This document shows, in pieces, positions 5,815-9,993 of a stretch of DNA of 64,000 nt (positions within the stretch are counted from its first letter, which is position 1; each line of letters begins with the position of its first letter). The notes beneath the pieces were generated by a model. That model did no database searches. It had not been told where the DNA came from and was given only the letters and a program-made list of their open reading frames with translations. This DNA comes from Nocardioides marinus (GTDB lineage Bacteria > Pseudomonadota > Alphaproteobacteria > Rhodobacterales > Rhodobacteraceae). Position numbers and translations under genes: made by a program. The stretch spans positions 496,001-560,000 of the forward strand of contig JAHVJD010000001.1 in the NCBI GenBank assembly GCA_019801415.1, in the 5' to 3' direction.

Positions 5815-6138
5815 ATGCAACTGCCCCCCAAAGTGACGGACCGCGCCTTTGCCCGGCTGGCCGAAATCGGCGCCGCTGCACAGGGTCAGGCGCTGCGTAT
5901 CGCGGTGGAAGGCGGCGGCTGTTCCGGCTTTCAGTACGAGATCGCGCTGGACGAGGCCAAGCCCGACGACCTGGTTCTGGAAGGCCAGGGTGAGAAAGTC
6001 GTGGTCGATACGGTTTCGCTGCCCTTCCTGGAAAACGCGGTGATCGATTTCACCGAAGAGCTGATCGGCGCGCGTTTCACCATCGAAAACCCCAACGCTA
6101 CCTCCAGCTGCGGCTGCGGGACGTCCTTTTCGATGTAA
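5815..6138 (+). CDS. erpA: A-type iron-sulfur cluster carrier (ErpA/IscA family)
   Basis: A 107-residue HesB/IscA-family scaffold that passes Fe-S clusters to apo-enzymes. The three conserved cysteines are visible: Cys36 in EGGGCSGFQYE and Cys99/Cys101 in the C-terminal SSCGCGTSF. The start at 5815 (MQLPPKVTDRAFARL) follows a GGAG ribosome site; an in-frame upstream ATG at 5692 lies inside the promoter and is rejected. It is a single gene diverging from dgt. ErpA versus another A-type paralogue cannot be settled from sequence alone. ispG, a possible 4Fe-4S client, is elsewhere in the window. Confidence 0.9.
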   Translation: MQLPPKVTDRAFARLAEIGAAAQGQALRIAVEGGGCSGFQYEIALDEAKPDDLVLEGQGEKVVVDTVSLPFLENAVIDFTEELIGARFTIENPNATSSCGCGTSFSM

Positions 6139-6248: not shown

Positions 6249-7172
6249 TCAGGGATCAGTGCGCAGCCGCGCCGGTCGCGTCGGTTGCGCAGCCGTTTGC
6301 GGGCCACGCGGCGCGAATTGATCCCACACCAGATACAGCCCCGAGCCCACGACGACGAGCCCCCCGACATAGGTGGTCAATGGCGGGTACTCCCCGAACC
6401 CGAGCGCGCCAATGACCGCCATCCAGATGAATTGCAAGTTCATCAGCGGCGTGACCGCATAAGAGGCCAGAAGCCGCAGCGCCACCACCAGCAACCAACG
6501 GGCCGCGAACAGCAGCAGCGCATAGGCGAGCACCCACCCCACGTCCCCTGCGGACATGGGCTGCCAGACAAAGGGAACCAGCAGGAACATCAGCAGGCAA
6601 AGGCACAGATTCGGGTAGAAGACCTGGACAAGCGGTTTCGCCTCGTAACGGCCGATGTAGCGCGCCATGGTCATCGAGAACGTGCCCGCAACCGCCGCCA
6701 TCAAGGCCAGCAGATGACCGGCCGAGACCGTTGCCAGGCCGCGCGGGAAGAGAAACAGCATCCCGGCGAAGCCCGCCAGCAGTGCCAGCCAGGCCGCCGG
6801 GCGCACCGGCTCCTTCAGCAGCGCGCCCGACATCGCCCCGGCCAGCAATGGCATGAGACCGATGAACACGAAGACTTCTGCAAAGGGCAGCAGCCGGAAG
6901 GCCTGATAAAAGCAGATCGCAGCGATGACCGTCGCCAGGCTGCGCAAGGCCGTCGCACGCGGGCAGCTGGTGGCGAACCCCCGGCGCTGCCCCGGGAGCC
7001 GGTCGGCGAGGCGGCACAACAGCACAACCACCGCCCCGGACAAGGCGTAGATCTGCACCGGGCCGTAGCCCCCTGCCAGGACCTTGGTTATGCCATCCGC
7101 CGAGGCGATCAACCCCGTGTAGATCACCACAAGCAGAGCGCCGAGAAGGCTCTGGGTCCGAACGCGGCTCAT
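6249..7172 (-). CDS. EamA-type DMT transporter
   Basis: A 307-residue inner-membrane protein with about ten hydrophobic helices in the two-repeat EamA architecture of the drug/metabolite transporter superfamily (start MSRVRTQSLLGALLVVIYTG, end about LVWDQFAPRGPQ). Such proteins usually export small metabolites or amino acids. Its ATG (7172-7170) overlaps the TGA of the 387-residue gene (7171-7169) as ATGA, which argues for translational coupling. Together with the upstream FSSGS-repeat protein it looks like the export gene of a three-gene operon. The longer start at 7205 has no special support. Substrate unknown. Confidence 0.85.
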   Translation of the reverse strand: MSRVRTQSLLGALLVVIYTGLIASADGITKVLAGGYGPVQIYALSGAVVVLLCRLADRLPGQRRGFATSCPRATALRSLATVIAAICFYQAFRLLPFAEVFVFIGLMPLLAGAMSGALLKEPVRPAAWLALLAGFAGMLFLFPRGLATVSAGHLLALMAAVAGTFSMTMARYIGRYEAKPLVQVFYPNLCLCLLMFLLVPFVWQPMSAGDVGWVLAYALLLFAARWLLVVALRLLASYAVTPLMNLQFIWMAVIGALGFGEYPPLTTYVGGLVVVGSGLYLVWDQFAPRGPQTAAQPTRPARLRTDP

Positions 7173-8332
7173 GCCGGAGCCGCGTGGCCCGCGCGGGCAA
7201 AACACTCGAAAAAGCCGTCGAAGTCAGCGCAGCTCTGCTCCGCGGAGCTCAGAACCTGCTGCGCCTGCTGCGTCAAGGCGCTCTGGCAGCGGGACTTGAT
7301 CGACGCCCAATGTGGCCGCGTTTCGCCTGTCTTGAAAACGGCTTCGGACAAATGTTTCAAAACACTTCCTCCCTGCGGCCCGGAAACGAGCAGCCCACGC
7401 GAGACACCACCCCCGCGCGCCCCGGCCTCTCCCCCAGCCGTTGCTGGACCAACAGTTCGCGGCACCGGATGCCGAAAACCACGGCGACCCGAGAGAACCA
7501 TCAGCCAATTCACCACAAAATACGCGTGATAATCGTCGCTGACACCATAAAACTCGCCTTTTGCGAGTGAAAACTCCGTTAACACCCGGTCGAGCCAGGC
7601 CTCCCACTGCAACGGCGGCTGGTGCCCGGCATAGCGCAGGGCGATGCAGATTTCGGCCAGAAGATCCGCATCCTGATCGAGAAAGGCGACCAATCCGGCA
7701 TACTCCAGACTGGTCTTGACCTGAGCTGGCAGATCCGGGTCCCGTTGCCCGTATTCGGACAGGTAGAAGACGATATGGGTCAGCTCGTAGGCCGCTTTTT
7801 TGTTTGGAATGGCAAAGGTTTGCGAACGCGACGCAAACCCGCGCAGGCGGTCGTCCAATCCCGCATCAGCCAACTGCACGTCGCGGCGCCCCAGCAGGCG
7901 GCGAGCCTCGGCCCGTTGCAGGTCGGACAGTTCGGCCTGCACCAATCCCTGCCTCGCCACCCACTGCGCCATTTGCGCGCCGCTCTCCCCCTCCATCCCG
8001 AGGTCTTCGAGGTCGAAGCAGATGGACAGGATGAACCGGTAATATTGCCGAAAAAAGCTCAGATGCCGCGGAGCTGCAGCGTAAAACGGGGCCAGAACCG
8101 CGAGCGAATCATCCTCGAACCGATGCCCCGTGCATTGCAGGATGTTCAGAAGCTCGGCGTTTTCCTTGAGCCAGAACACATCCTCCTCGCGACGGCGGCC
8201 CCGCGCGAAGGCCGCGACCAACGCCCGCTGCGGCGAAGAACCGCCCCCAATGGACCCGCGCGCAAAGCCCGTGCGGCCACCATGGAATGCAGCGCCGGAG
8301 GGCTGGACGGAAAGAGGAATGATCTGGGCCAT
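7169..8332 (-). CDS. Unrecognised 387-residue protein of the FSSGS-peptide operon
   Basis: I do not recognise this family with confidence. It is 387 residues with no signal peptide or clear membrane helix. The body is helical and rich in Leu, Arg and aromatic residues. A conspicuous motif at residues 183-195 reads ELTHIVFYLSEYG; a Thr-His-x-x-Phe-Tyr signature of this kind occurs, as far as I recall, in uncharacterised DUF families. Residues about 290-325 are a Gly/Arg-rich low-complexity stretch. No radical-SAM CxxxCxxC, ATP-grasp or LanC-type motif is visible. The ATG at 8332 follows GAGG. It lies downstream of the repeat protein and overlaps the exporter start by 4 bases. A role acting on that protein is inference only. 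Confidence 0.6.
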   Translation of the reverse strand: MAQIIPLSVQPSGAAFHGGRTGFARGSIGGGSSPQRALVAAFARGRRREEDVFWLKENAELLNILQCTGHRFEDDSLAVLAPFYAAAPRHLSFFRQYYRFILSICFDLEDLGMEGESGAQMAQWVARQGLVQAELSDLQRAEARRLLGRRDVQLADAGLDDRLRGFASRSQTFAIPNKKAAYELTHIVFYLSEYGQRDPDLPAQVKTSLEYAGLVAFLDQDADLLAEICIALRYAGHQPPLQWEAWLDRVLTEFSLAKGEFYGVSDDYHAYFVVNWLMVLSGRRGFRHPVPRTVGPATAGGEAGARGGGVSRGLLVSGPQGGSVLKHLSEAVFKTGETRPHWASIKSRCQSALTQQAQQVLSSAEQSCADFDGFFECFARAGHAAPA

Positions 8333-8500
8333 TGGAACCTCGTCGAGCGAGGGGCACCGGCCAGGGTCTTGTCCAGCCAGTGCGCCCGATATTGAGCAGG
8401 AGAGCCGTTTTGACCGCGCCTTGGGAGCGTGCCTCGGCGTGCCCTGCGAAATTCGGCAGATGGCCTACAACGAGGCGCACCCGCCAACGCGCAGTTGAGA

Positions 8501-8812
8501 TCAGCTGCCGGAGGAGAAAAGCCCCGTTGCCACACCGGCGTCCATTGCCGCCCCGCTGCCCCGCGCCATTGGTGACGACCCGGAGGAATAGAGGCCCACT
8601 TGGTTGCCGCTGACGGTGTCGGAGAGCCGCGCCGAGGGAGCGGAGCCGGAAGAAAAGCACCCTACGGCCTCGCCAAGGCTGACATCTGCATCCCGTTGCG
8701 GCAGGGAGCCTGAGGAGAACATCTCGACCCCGCCCCCTGCGTGCAAATCGGCCAATGGCAACTCCTCGCTGTGCGAAACGGAAAATTCGGTGAACTTGCG
8801 CAGTGCAGACAT
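8501..8812 (-). CDS. Small protein with four (F/Y)SSGS repeats
   Basis: A 103-residue protein. After a leader-like N-terminus (residues 1-28, MSALRKFTEFSVSHSEELPL...HAGGG) there are four copies of a C-terminal pentad: FSSGS at 32-36, FSSGS at 53-57, YSSGS at 75-79 and FSSGS at 99-103. The last pentad forms the extreme C-terminus. Each copy follows a hydrophobic or Cys residue, usually preceded by Gly (VEM, VGC, VGL, TGL), at 21-24 residue spacing. Codons differ in every copy, including TCN versus AGC serine, so the motif is kept at protein level. I chose ATG 8812 because GAGG lies six bases upstream; ATG 8824 has no ribosome site. No membrane helix is visible. It precedes the 387-residue gene by 168 bases. 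Function unknown; a multi-core peptide precursor is one reading. Confidence 0.65.
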   Translation of the reverse strand: MSALRKFTEFSVSHSEELPLADLHAGGGVEMFSSGSLPQRDADVSLGEAVGCFSSGSAPSARLSDTVSGNQVGLYSSGSSPMARGSGAAMDAGVATGLFSSGS

Positions 8813-9186
8813 CGGAAACCTCATGTGTTTGAGACGGTTACCCCACTGACGCTGACATGGCGATCACTCAACAAAAAGTAGAATTTTAACGACAGCAAAC
8901 AATCAATGATTATACCCACATGAACTTTCTTCGACTGTCATCTAGCGGGTCAAAATGATTTCAAACGATCCACAGGCGAGAGATGAAGTTATGCACATGC
9001 GCCAAAACGCATGCCCTTCGCTGCAAATCGGAAGGTCGCTTTGCAGATGCACAAAGGCAGTTTCCCGAATGCCACACCCGCGTGATTCGCAACGGAGGCT
9101 GACCGGCGCGCATTCACCTTGCTCCGGCCCCGCGATTGGGCGATAGATCAGCGCGTGAATACAGCACCATGCGTCGGAGGCAAGCC
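8813..9186. promoter_or_regulatory. AT-richer divergent region upstream of the FSSGS gene and xthA
   Basis: About 370 bases without a convincing gene. Its first 130 bases are clearly more AT-rich than the surroundings. On the minus strand a perfect TATAAT (plus positions 8909-8914) lies about 95 bases ahead of the repeat-protein start, without a clear -35 hexamer. A 63-codon plus-strand frame at 8955-9146 has no ribosome site and poor composition and is not called. Immediately before xthA there is GGAGG at 9176-9180. Confidence 0.4.
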
Positions 9187-9993
9187 ATGAAAATCGCCAC
9201 GTTCAACATCAATGGCATCAAGGCCCGCGCGCAGGCGCTGCCGGACTGGCTGGACGAGGCGCAACCCGATGTGGTGGTGCTGCAGGAGATCAAGTCCGTC
9301 GACGAGGCTTTTCCGCGCGAGGTGTTCGAGGAACGGGGCTACAACGTGGAAACCCACGGCCAGAAAAGCTTCAACGGCGTCGCCATCCTGTCGAAACTGC
9401 CGCTGGAGGACGTGAGCCGGGGTTTGCCGGGAGATGATGCCGATGAACAGGCCCGCTGGATCGAAGCCACGGTGGTTGGTCAGCAGGCGATCCGGATCTG
9501 CGGCCTTTATCTGCCCAACGGCAACCCGGTTGAACTGGAGGCTGACGGAACCCCGGTGGCGGGCGGCAAATATGCCTACAAGCTGGCCTGGATGGAACGG
9601 CTCAAGGCCCGTGCGCAGGCGCTTCTTGATCAGGAGATGCCTGCCCTCATGGCCGGGGATTACAACATCATCCCCCAACCCGAGGACGCCAAACGCCCTG
9701 AAGCCTGGGTCGAGGATGCGCTGCATCGTCACGAAAGCCGGGCCGCCTATCAGCGGATCCTCAACCTCGGCTTTACCGAGGCGTTCCGGGCGCGCCACCC
9801 CGAGCCGGGACACTACTCGTTCTGGGACTACCAGGCCGGGGCGTGGAACCGCAACGACGGTATCCGCATTGACCATTTCCTGCTCACCCCGCAGGCGGCG
9901 GACCTGCTGCTGGACTGCCAGATCGACAAGGATGTGCGGGGGCGGGAAAAACCTTCGGACCATGTGCCCGTCTGGGTGGAGCTCGACCTGTAA
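9187..9993 (+). CDS. xthA: Exodeoxyribonuclease III
   Basis: AP endonuclease/exonuclease of base-excision repair, 268 residues, EEP fold. Catalytic motifs are complete: FNINGIKARA (Asn near the N-terminus), VVVLQEIKS (metal-binding Glu), GLYLPNGNP (Tyr and Asn), MAGDYNIIP (Asp and Asn) and the C-terminal NDGIRIDHFLLTP and KPSDHVPVWVEL (Asp-His pair). The ATG at 9187 directly follows GGAGGCAAGCC; the in-frame upstream start at 9136 is unnecessary. It stands alone, converging with the FAD monooxygenase. Confidence 0.95.
   Translation: MKIATFNINGIKARAQALPDWLDEAQPDVVVLQEIKSVDEAFPREVFEERGYNVETHGQKSFNGVAILSKLPLEDVSRGLPGDDADEQARWIEATVVGQQAIRICGLYLPNGNPVELEADGTPVAGGKYAYKLAWMERLKARAQALLDQEMPALMAGDYNIIPQPEDAKRPEAWVEDALHRHESRAAYQRILNLGFTEAFRARHPEPGHYSFWDYQAGAWNRNDGIRIDHFLLTPQAADLLLDCQIDKDVRGREKPSDHVPVWVELDL

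Follow-up and report, generated by a model that had tools for sequence, protein, structure and literature searches.

A window of 64,000 nucleotides from Nocardioides marinus (the whole stretch of DNA analysed here: assembly GCA_019801415.1, contig JAHVJD010000001.1, positions 496,001 to 560,000, placed by GTDB in the family Rhodobacteraceae) contains, on its minus strand, three consecutive genes coding for an (F/Y)SSGS-repeat protein, a protein of the Pfam family DUF6902 and an EamA transporter. We propose that this operon is a compact multi-core pathway of the kind that makes ribosomally synthesized and post-translationally modified peptides (RiPPs), and that it would yield a modified, released and exported short peptide. 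Judging from the sequence comparisons presented below, we put the probability of this interpretation at about 0.8. A ribosomal precursor with a leader and a variable core is here genetically tied to a candidate enzyme, as expected of a RiPP pathway.

According to this proposal, the first gene would encode an unstructured precursor, with a leader that often begins M(S/T)A..K and is followed by tandem units. Three elements would make up each unit: a stretch for recognition (G-D/E-x-V/T-x-M/A/L), a core of five residues and a short linker. The DUF6902 protein would modify the cores, the likeliest reaction being L-to-D epimerisation, host peptidases would free many identical short peptides, and the EamA transporter would export the freed peptides. 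What the sequences establish directly is the gene content and order, the co-occurrence, the homology and the selection on the core; modification, release and export are inferred from these.

Pentapeptide arrays and their genetic partners

The repeat gene (8501..8812, stop codon at 8501-8503) encodes 103 residues, with a leader spanning approximately residues 1-25 (MSALRK...) followed by four units. Their cores, identified in the sequence and by the flank-only unit search described below, are FSSGS (8705..8719), FSSGS (8642..8656), YSSGS (8576..8590) and FSSGS (8504..8518), the last of which ends at the stop codon. This is the set of four units that the initial annotation had reported. Among 100,000 residue shuffles of the protein, 99,238 contained zero units, 760 contained one and 2 contained two. 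We favour ATG 8812 as the start because most relatives begin at the equivalent of MSALRK; the alternative longer start, ATG 8824, would give 107 residues. A GAGG motif (8819..8822), six bases 5' of ATG 8812, is probably the ribosome-binding site. The protein is predicted to be disordered (predicted local distance difference test score, pLDDT, of 44 for the structure model).

Related arrays were retrieved by running an array profile on 147 loci (overlapping sets). Ten loci had no profile array: L084 has none, L085 and L086 are truncated by the end of a contig, and units are visible by eye in L052, L083, L110, L111, L112, L193 and L231. Leaving out arrays identical over the last 120 residues and those with fewer than three detected units (two-unit arrays exist at L076, L083 and L112), we obtained 116 non-redundant arrays with 842 units. 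They have from 3 to 20 units, where 3 is our own cut and the counts are to be read as minimum values, since the core-aware model overlooks some units (it detected three of the four in the window). A leader start of the MTAQRK or MSALRK kind occurs in 91 of the 116 arrays, and units are spaced by 20 or 21 residues in 661 of 726 spacings. The unit consensus is G-(D/E)-(A/G)-(V/T)-E-(M/A/L), a core F-(S/T)-S-(G/W/S)-(S/L/A), then (A/G)-P, with Pro two residues past the core in most arrays. The final detected core ends precisely at the stop codon in 73 arrays, a pattern that includes the window's. We counted 33 core types, of which FSSGS is the most frequent (38 arrays) and FTSWS the second (14). 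Ser and Thr abound in the cores, some of which contain Cys or Trp.

The presence of the operon among Rhodobacteraceae is patchy. DUF6902 was found in 55 of 198 genomes drawn from the family, including the window's own, which has a single copy, and was absent from all 14 control genomes. When genomes were drawn from the order, 25 of 101 matched, all of them Rhodobacteraceae; when drawn from the class, three of 240 were above the DUF6902 cut-off, again all Rhodobacteraceae, with one more weak match below it. A scan of contigs from 84,980 species recovered 397 relatives. The best 80 of these belong to genera that we take to be Rhodobacteraceae (including Leisingera, Ruegeria, Salipiger, Roseovarius and Shimia) or to metagenome-assembled genomes labelled Rhodobacteraceae, Paracoccaceae, Rhodobacterales or Alphaproteobacteria. 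No relative was found in plasmid records.

Repeat protein and DUF6902 are closely associated. We took 55 loci around the family matches other than the window's, two of which begin inside the DUF6902 gene at a contig end; 52 of the 53 with upstream sequence carry a gene of tandem units on the same strand, upstream of DUF6902, the exception being L084. In the reverse direction, a profile of eleven precursors matched 52 of 198 family genomes (a draw that agrees with the DUF6902 draw in its listed genomes), all among the 55 with DUF6902, and had no match in the 143 family genomes without it. The three DUF6902 genomes that it left unmatched are that of L084, one truncated by a contig end, and one in which a diverged two-unit MMCCS array is visible by eye. 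The initial annotation had read the repeats as cores or targets in a locus resembling those of peptide natural products, a reading that finding the repeat protein apart from DUF6902 would have undermined. No such case arose, since all 52 co-occur, and across the family loci the three-gene order is conserved with variable repeat number (up to 20) and variable core. This co-occurrence, together with the uniformity of the cores, supports the reading of the repeats as probable cores. In two genomes (G027 and G053) the precursor profile matched two contigs each, suggesting that tandem units probably break assemblies.

The gene of the EamA (DMT) transporter (6249..7172) encodes 307 residues from ATG 7172, or 318 from an alternative GTG start, and its product matches the EamA domain with 47.2 bits (Pfam cut-off 28.2). 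Its start overlaps the DUF6902 stop codon (ATGA), an overlap that the initial annotation had noted and that is real. A relative of this transporter adjoins DUF6902 in 97 of the 114 non-redundant arrays with enough downstream sequence. The operon is flanked by a gene at 9187-9993 (Exo_endo_phos by Pfam), for which xth is our own label, and by an ErpA/IscA-type gene at 5815-6138; argS, dgt, dksA and moxR are likewise our labels for further genes, assigned from unscanned sequence. Among 30 genomes hand-picked from the listed DUF6902 non-matches (two of the loci being cut by contig ends), none has EamA within 1.5 kilobases on either side of erpA, while dgt is kept in 28 and xth, whole or partial, in 23. 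The adjacency in the arrays and the absence from these genomes indicate that EamA comes and goes with DUF6902, yet is not obligatory.

The same organisation recurs outside the class. Searching 274 genomes from another class for DUF6895 led to one genome (locus L129) in which the protein found is a DUF6902 member (343 bits), 41% identical to that of the window. Approximately 300 bases upstream, behind a GGAGG site, a short gene encodes three units G-E/A-G-T/S-E-L-F/L/Y-GCYT, and an EamA protein with 34% identity to that of the window follows with a four-base overlap. The operon order is that of the window and the core (GCYT) is different, which is a strong argument against the genes being neighbours by inertia. 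It might be supposed that the three genes lie side by side only by chance, in a part of the chromosome that is conserved, as flanking xth and erpA-dgt are themselves conserved and neighbours could persist in this way. We rejected this explanation, which seems hardly credible, because the gene set comes and goes jointly at its site and recurs in another class.

The gap between the repeat gene and the DUF6902 gene is 168 bases; among the 97 arrays in which this gap was measurable, the median is 67. Between 6140 and 9200, no sigma-70-like promoter was found (0.6 in shuffles), and two terminator-like sites were found, under the shuffle expectation of 3.9.

Selection on the core

The core is nearly constant within an array and varies between arrays. 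The fraction of identical cores is 0.91 within and 0.13 between arrays, and the mean entropy of core positions +1 to +4 is 0.01-0.05 bits within arrays against 0.6-1.7 bits between array consensuses. Meanwhile, most linker positions are variable within arrays. In pairs of units from the same array, codons +1 to +4 of the core show 49% synonymous and 2% non-synonymous differences, whereas linker codons -5 to -1 show 20% and 49% (array means, which describe rather than test, as within-array pairs are non-independent and Ser has six codons; the contrast is nonetheless very large). From this contrast between core and linker codons, we conclude that selection acts on the short product, the core, and that its uniformity is due to selection and not merely to recent copying.

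Since the core-aware unit search might favour uniform cores, units were found again with a model of the upstream flank alone, in a leave-one-out manner. This control returned 838 units, with 113 of the 116 arrays counted and the remaining three having fewer than three units. Positions +1 to +4 were identical in 104 of the 113 arrays, and differences were again 49% synonymous and 2% non-synonymous. Two of the nine non-uniform arrays (L068 and L214) look like false unit calls. The other seven are real mixtures: FSTSC with FSSGS (L063 and L204), FTSGS with FTTSA (L177), FTSSS with a final FTSGS (L070), FTTSC with FTTGL (L071), and one odd unit each in L058 and L182. We also observed that the precursors of L063, L204, L072 and L070 have FSSGS or FTSGS as the last core, with most other cores different.

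Uniform cores could in principle reflect recent duplication or gene conversion only, the pentapeptide itself having no function. Some arrays do have near-identical units, and short-tract conversion could spread a new core. Nevertheless, such copying does not account for core codons that differ almost exclusively at synonymous positions next to linkers that differ largely at non-synonymous ones. Recent duplication as the cause of core uniformity was rejected on the codon data and the flank-only control, and we regard this explanation as very improbable.

Closely related loci can differ in the core of the entire array. The DUF6902 proteins of L036 and L201 are 94.9% identical, and all seven detected cores are FTSGS in the former while all six are FSSGS in the latter. 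Equivalent units are recognisable between the two, with the leader and several linkers alike and other linkers and codons different. On a quick tree of DUF6902, in which 47 of the 114 inner forks have weak support, core type tracks the branching: all types together require 48 changes (mean over 50 shuffles, 75.3), and W at core position 4 requires 3 (mean, 20.3).

The DUF6902 protein and its DUF6895 relatives

The second gene (7169..8332) encodes 387 residues and is our candidate for the peptide-modifying enzyme, based on Pfam matches, alignments and a structure model. Its product, described as unrecognised in the initial annotation, is in fact a member of DUF6902, a Pfam domain of unknown function (447.9 bits, cut-off 27). 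It also matches DUF6895 (75.5 bits, cut-off 23.8), while NCBIfam recognised neither this protein nor the precursor. The relationship holds throughout the family, as 52 of 53 aligned DUF6902 members match DUF6895 (E-value <= 0.1; L080, L085 and L086 were left out of this alignment, A1). Almost no variation is seen in either DUF6902 or DUF6895 at five residues, L65, H186, F189, D223 and E227 (at least 11 of 12), and the last four of them are putative active residues. The protein had also been described as carrying ELTHIVFYLSEYG but none of the common modification motifs; it does carry this stretch, which contains the nearly invariant His and Phe of both families.

The locus without an array offers a comparison. 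L084:6792-7928 encodes a distant DUF6902 relative, 24% identical, which in the alignment has other residues at H186, F189, D223 and E227. This lineage thus seems to have lost its substrate along with the putative active residues, a natural control of one case.

The structure model is mostly helical (below also called all-helical), with a pLDDT of 88.5 and a predicted template modelling score (pTM) of 0.88. The top rows of a Foldseek comparison, none of them significant, were armadillo-type and designed helical proteins, from which we draw no conclusion. Lower rows (transcobalamin, haptocorrin, complement C4b and GH154) are proteins that we take to be alpha/alpha toroids. In the window's copy, residue 95 is Arg instead of the Pro present in at least 90% of relatives, and a glycine-rich insert at approximately 288-312 is modelled with low confidence, suggesting that this copy may be diverging.

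DUF6895 offers the closest hint of a function. According to the title of Shi et al. (ACS Catal. 2026), as cited in PMC13352647, a DUF6895 (PF21836) family epimerase acts on a lasso peptide. This family is homologous to DUF6902 and shares its His, Phe, Asp and Glu positions, and some of its members lie behind candidate precursors. Short genes that may encode precursors precede the DUF6895 genes of L107 and L108 and, less clearly, that of L119 (L120 and L121, with DUF6895 below cut-off, were left out of this comparison). At L107:8104-8703 the candidates are two look-alikes with GRWYVY and GPWFVL motifs, and at L108:9437-9868 a protein with GPWYIY and GPWFVL units. These partner peptides, with GPWF, GPWY or GRWY motifs, differ from the pentapeptide arrays of DUF6902. 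L107 also has a C39/C70-like peptidase frame, and its upstream frames are presumably methyltransferase-like and MFS-like. Fusions of a DUF6895-like region to an M55 D-aminopeptidase occur in two genomes belonging to a single genus (L133:5484-7172 and L134:6305-8128), next to frames that we take to be ATP-grasp-like and SDR-like. The candidate precursors and the D-aminopeptidase fusion fit a chemistry that acts on peptides and involves D residues, without proving it.

Because DUF6902 is homologous to DUF6895, we rank L-to-D epimerisation of a core residue as the likeliest chemistry, at odds approaching even. The same pathway might instead rely on DUF6902 for cross-linking, cyclisation, Ser/Thr dehydration or the cutting of units, alternatives that are compatible with the pathway proposed here and to which, taken together, we give a substantial minority chance. 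The Ser/Thr-rich cores, some with Cys or Trp, would suit several of these reactions. The all-helical model is also consistent with them, as helical and toroid folds serve many reactions, and two DUF6895 relatives touch squalene-hopene cyclase models, although below cut-off. Unit cutting in particular would supply an activity for which the operon has no Pfam peptidase. Epimerisation, on the other hand, is the sole activity that we found named for the superfamily, in the title cited above, and it is also favoured by the D-aminopeptidase fusion.

Weighing the evidence and known systems

Several observations weigh against the proposed pathway or its chemistry. EamA is the least constant part of the operon, not being adjacent in 17 of the 114 arrays, and a Pfam scan of the operon proteins found no peptidase, RiPP recognition element (RRE), regulator or receptor domain. 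The DUF6895 proteins are 16-20% identical to the window's DUF6902 in the mixed alignment A2. No precursor gene was noticed among the frames listed for the lower-scoring DUF6895 loci L130-L134. Foldseek found nothing in the PDB at E <= 0.001 for the DUF6902 model; the comparison with RiPP enzymes suggested by the initial annotation was thus run and returned no match. Sequence searches of solved structures with DUF6902, with one DUF6895 relative and with alignment A2 gave no believable relative either. Lastly, the agreement between core type and the DUF6902 tree would also arise from plain vertical descent.

The missing peptidase and the arrays without an adjacent EamA gene would also suit a repeat protein that acts whole and uncut, in metal binding, scaffolding or phase separation, with DUF6902 binding or modifying it. 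Repetition of a fixed short motif is common among scaffold proteins, a further point in favour of such a role. However, a whole-protein role gives no reason to expect uniform cores that switch jointly across an array, or a link to an EamA exporter that recurs in another class, and we consider it improbable.

The multi-core RiPP-type pathway thus remains our preferred interpretation, and parts of it have counterparts in known systems. Cyanobactins have multi-core precursors with recognition stretches, processed by subtilisin-like proteases; such proteases are not in this operon, and cores here are array-uniform. In the yeast alpha-factor precursor, a short core recurs many times with spacers in between. 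MslH, the lasso peptide epimerase of MS-271, has a metallophosphatase-type fold, in contrast to the predicted all-helical DUF6902. The pantocin A cluster (PaaP/PaaA/PaaB/PaaC) has a ThiF-like enzyme and an oxygenase where the operon has DUF6902, and we know of no tandem cores in it. By Pfam, no ThiF-like enzyme was found among the three operon proteins, and no lasso cyclase or leader peptidase genes among the six window proteins scanned.

In other respects these systems resemble the operon. MslH epimerises a residue of a ribosomal peptide, as stated in an excerpt of PMC10406935. Fungal Kex2-processed repeat proteins have many short-core copies with spacers, but depend on eukaryotic secretion and Kex2 cleavage, whereas the window has a bacterial operon (excerpt of PMC7329392). 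Pantocin A is a tiny RiPP whose export is thought to use an EamA-family protein (excerpt of PMC12250964), so that a tiny ribosomal product and an EamA-family exporter are common to both. The initial annotation held that a short cleaved product would be exported rather than the whole protein. This fits what we observed, as only the core is constant within arrays and the excerpt on pantocin A gives a precedent for the exporter.

A core that is uniform in each strain yet differs from strain to strain suits either a strain-specific signal or an antimicrobial of narrow spectrum. A bolder possibility, which we consider doubtful, is an undescribed RiPP class, defined by DUF6902 and scattered through the Rhodobacteraceae, that makes a strain-specific pheromone. 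Up to 20 identical pentapeptide cores would receive a D residue from an all-helical epimerase and be released by a DMT exporter, and whole arrays would switch core together, giving one peptide dialect per lineage.

We found no mention of DUF6902 in the open-licence literature searched, and there, among the matches listed, no description of the operon by title or abstract start; FSSGS appeared only in papers unrelated by title. The logic of a multi-core RiPP with an exporter is known. To our knowledge, the enzyme family, the compactness of the operon and the array-wide core switching are new. These findings provide a functional context for two Pfam domains of unknown function, DUF6902 and DUF6895. 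Sequence alone here predicts a short secreted peptide core for more than 100 loci in a largely marine group of ecological importance. Natural variants of the core allow direct tests both of the specificity of the enzyme and of any role in signalling or killing.

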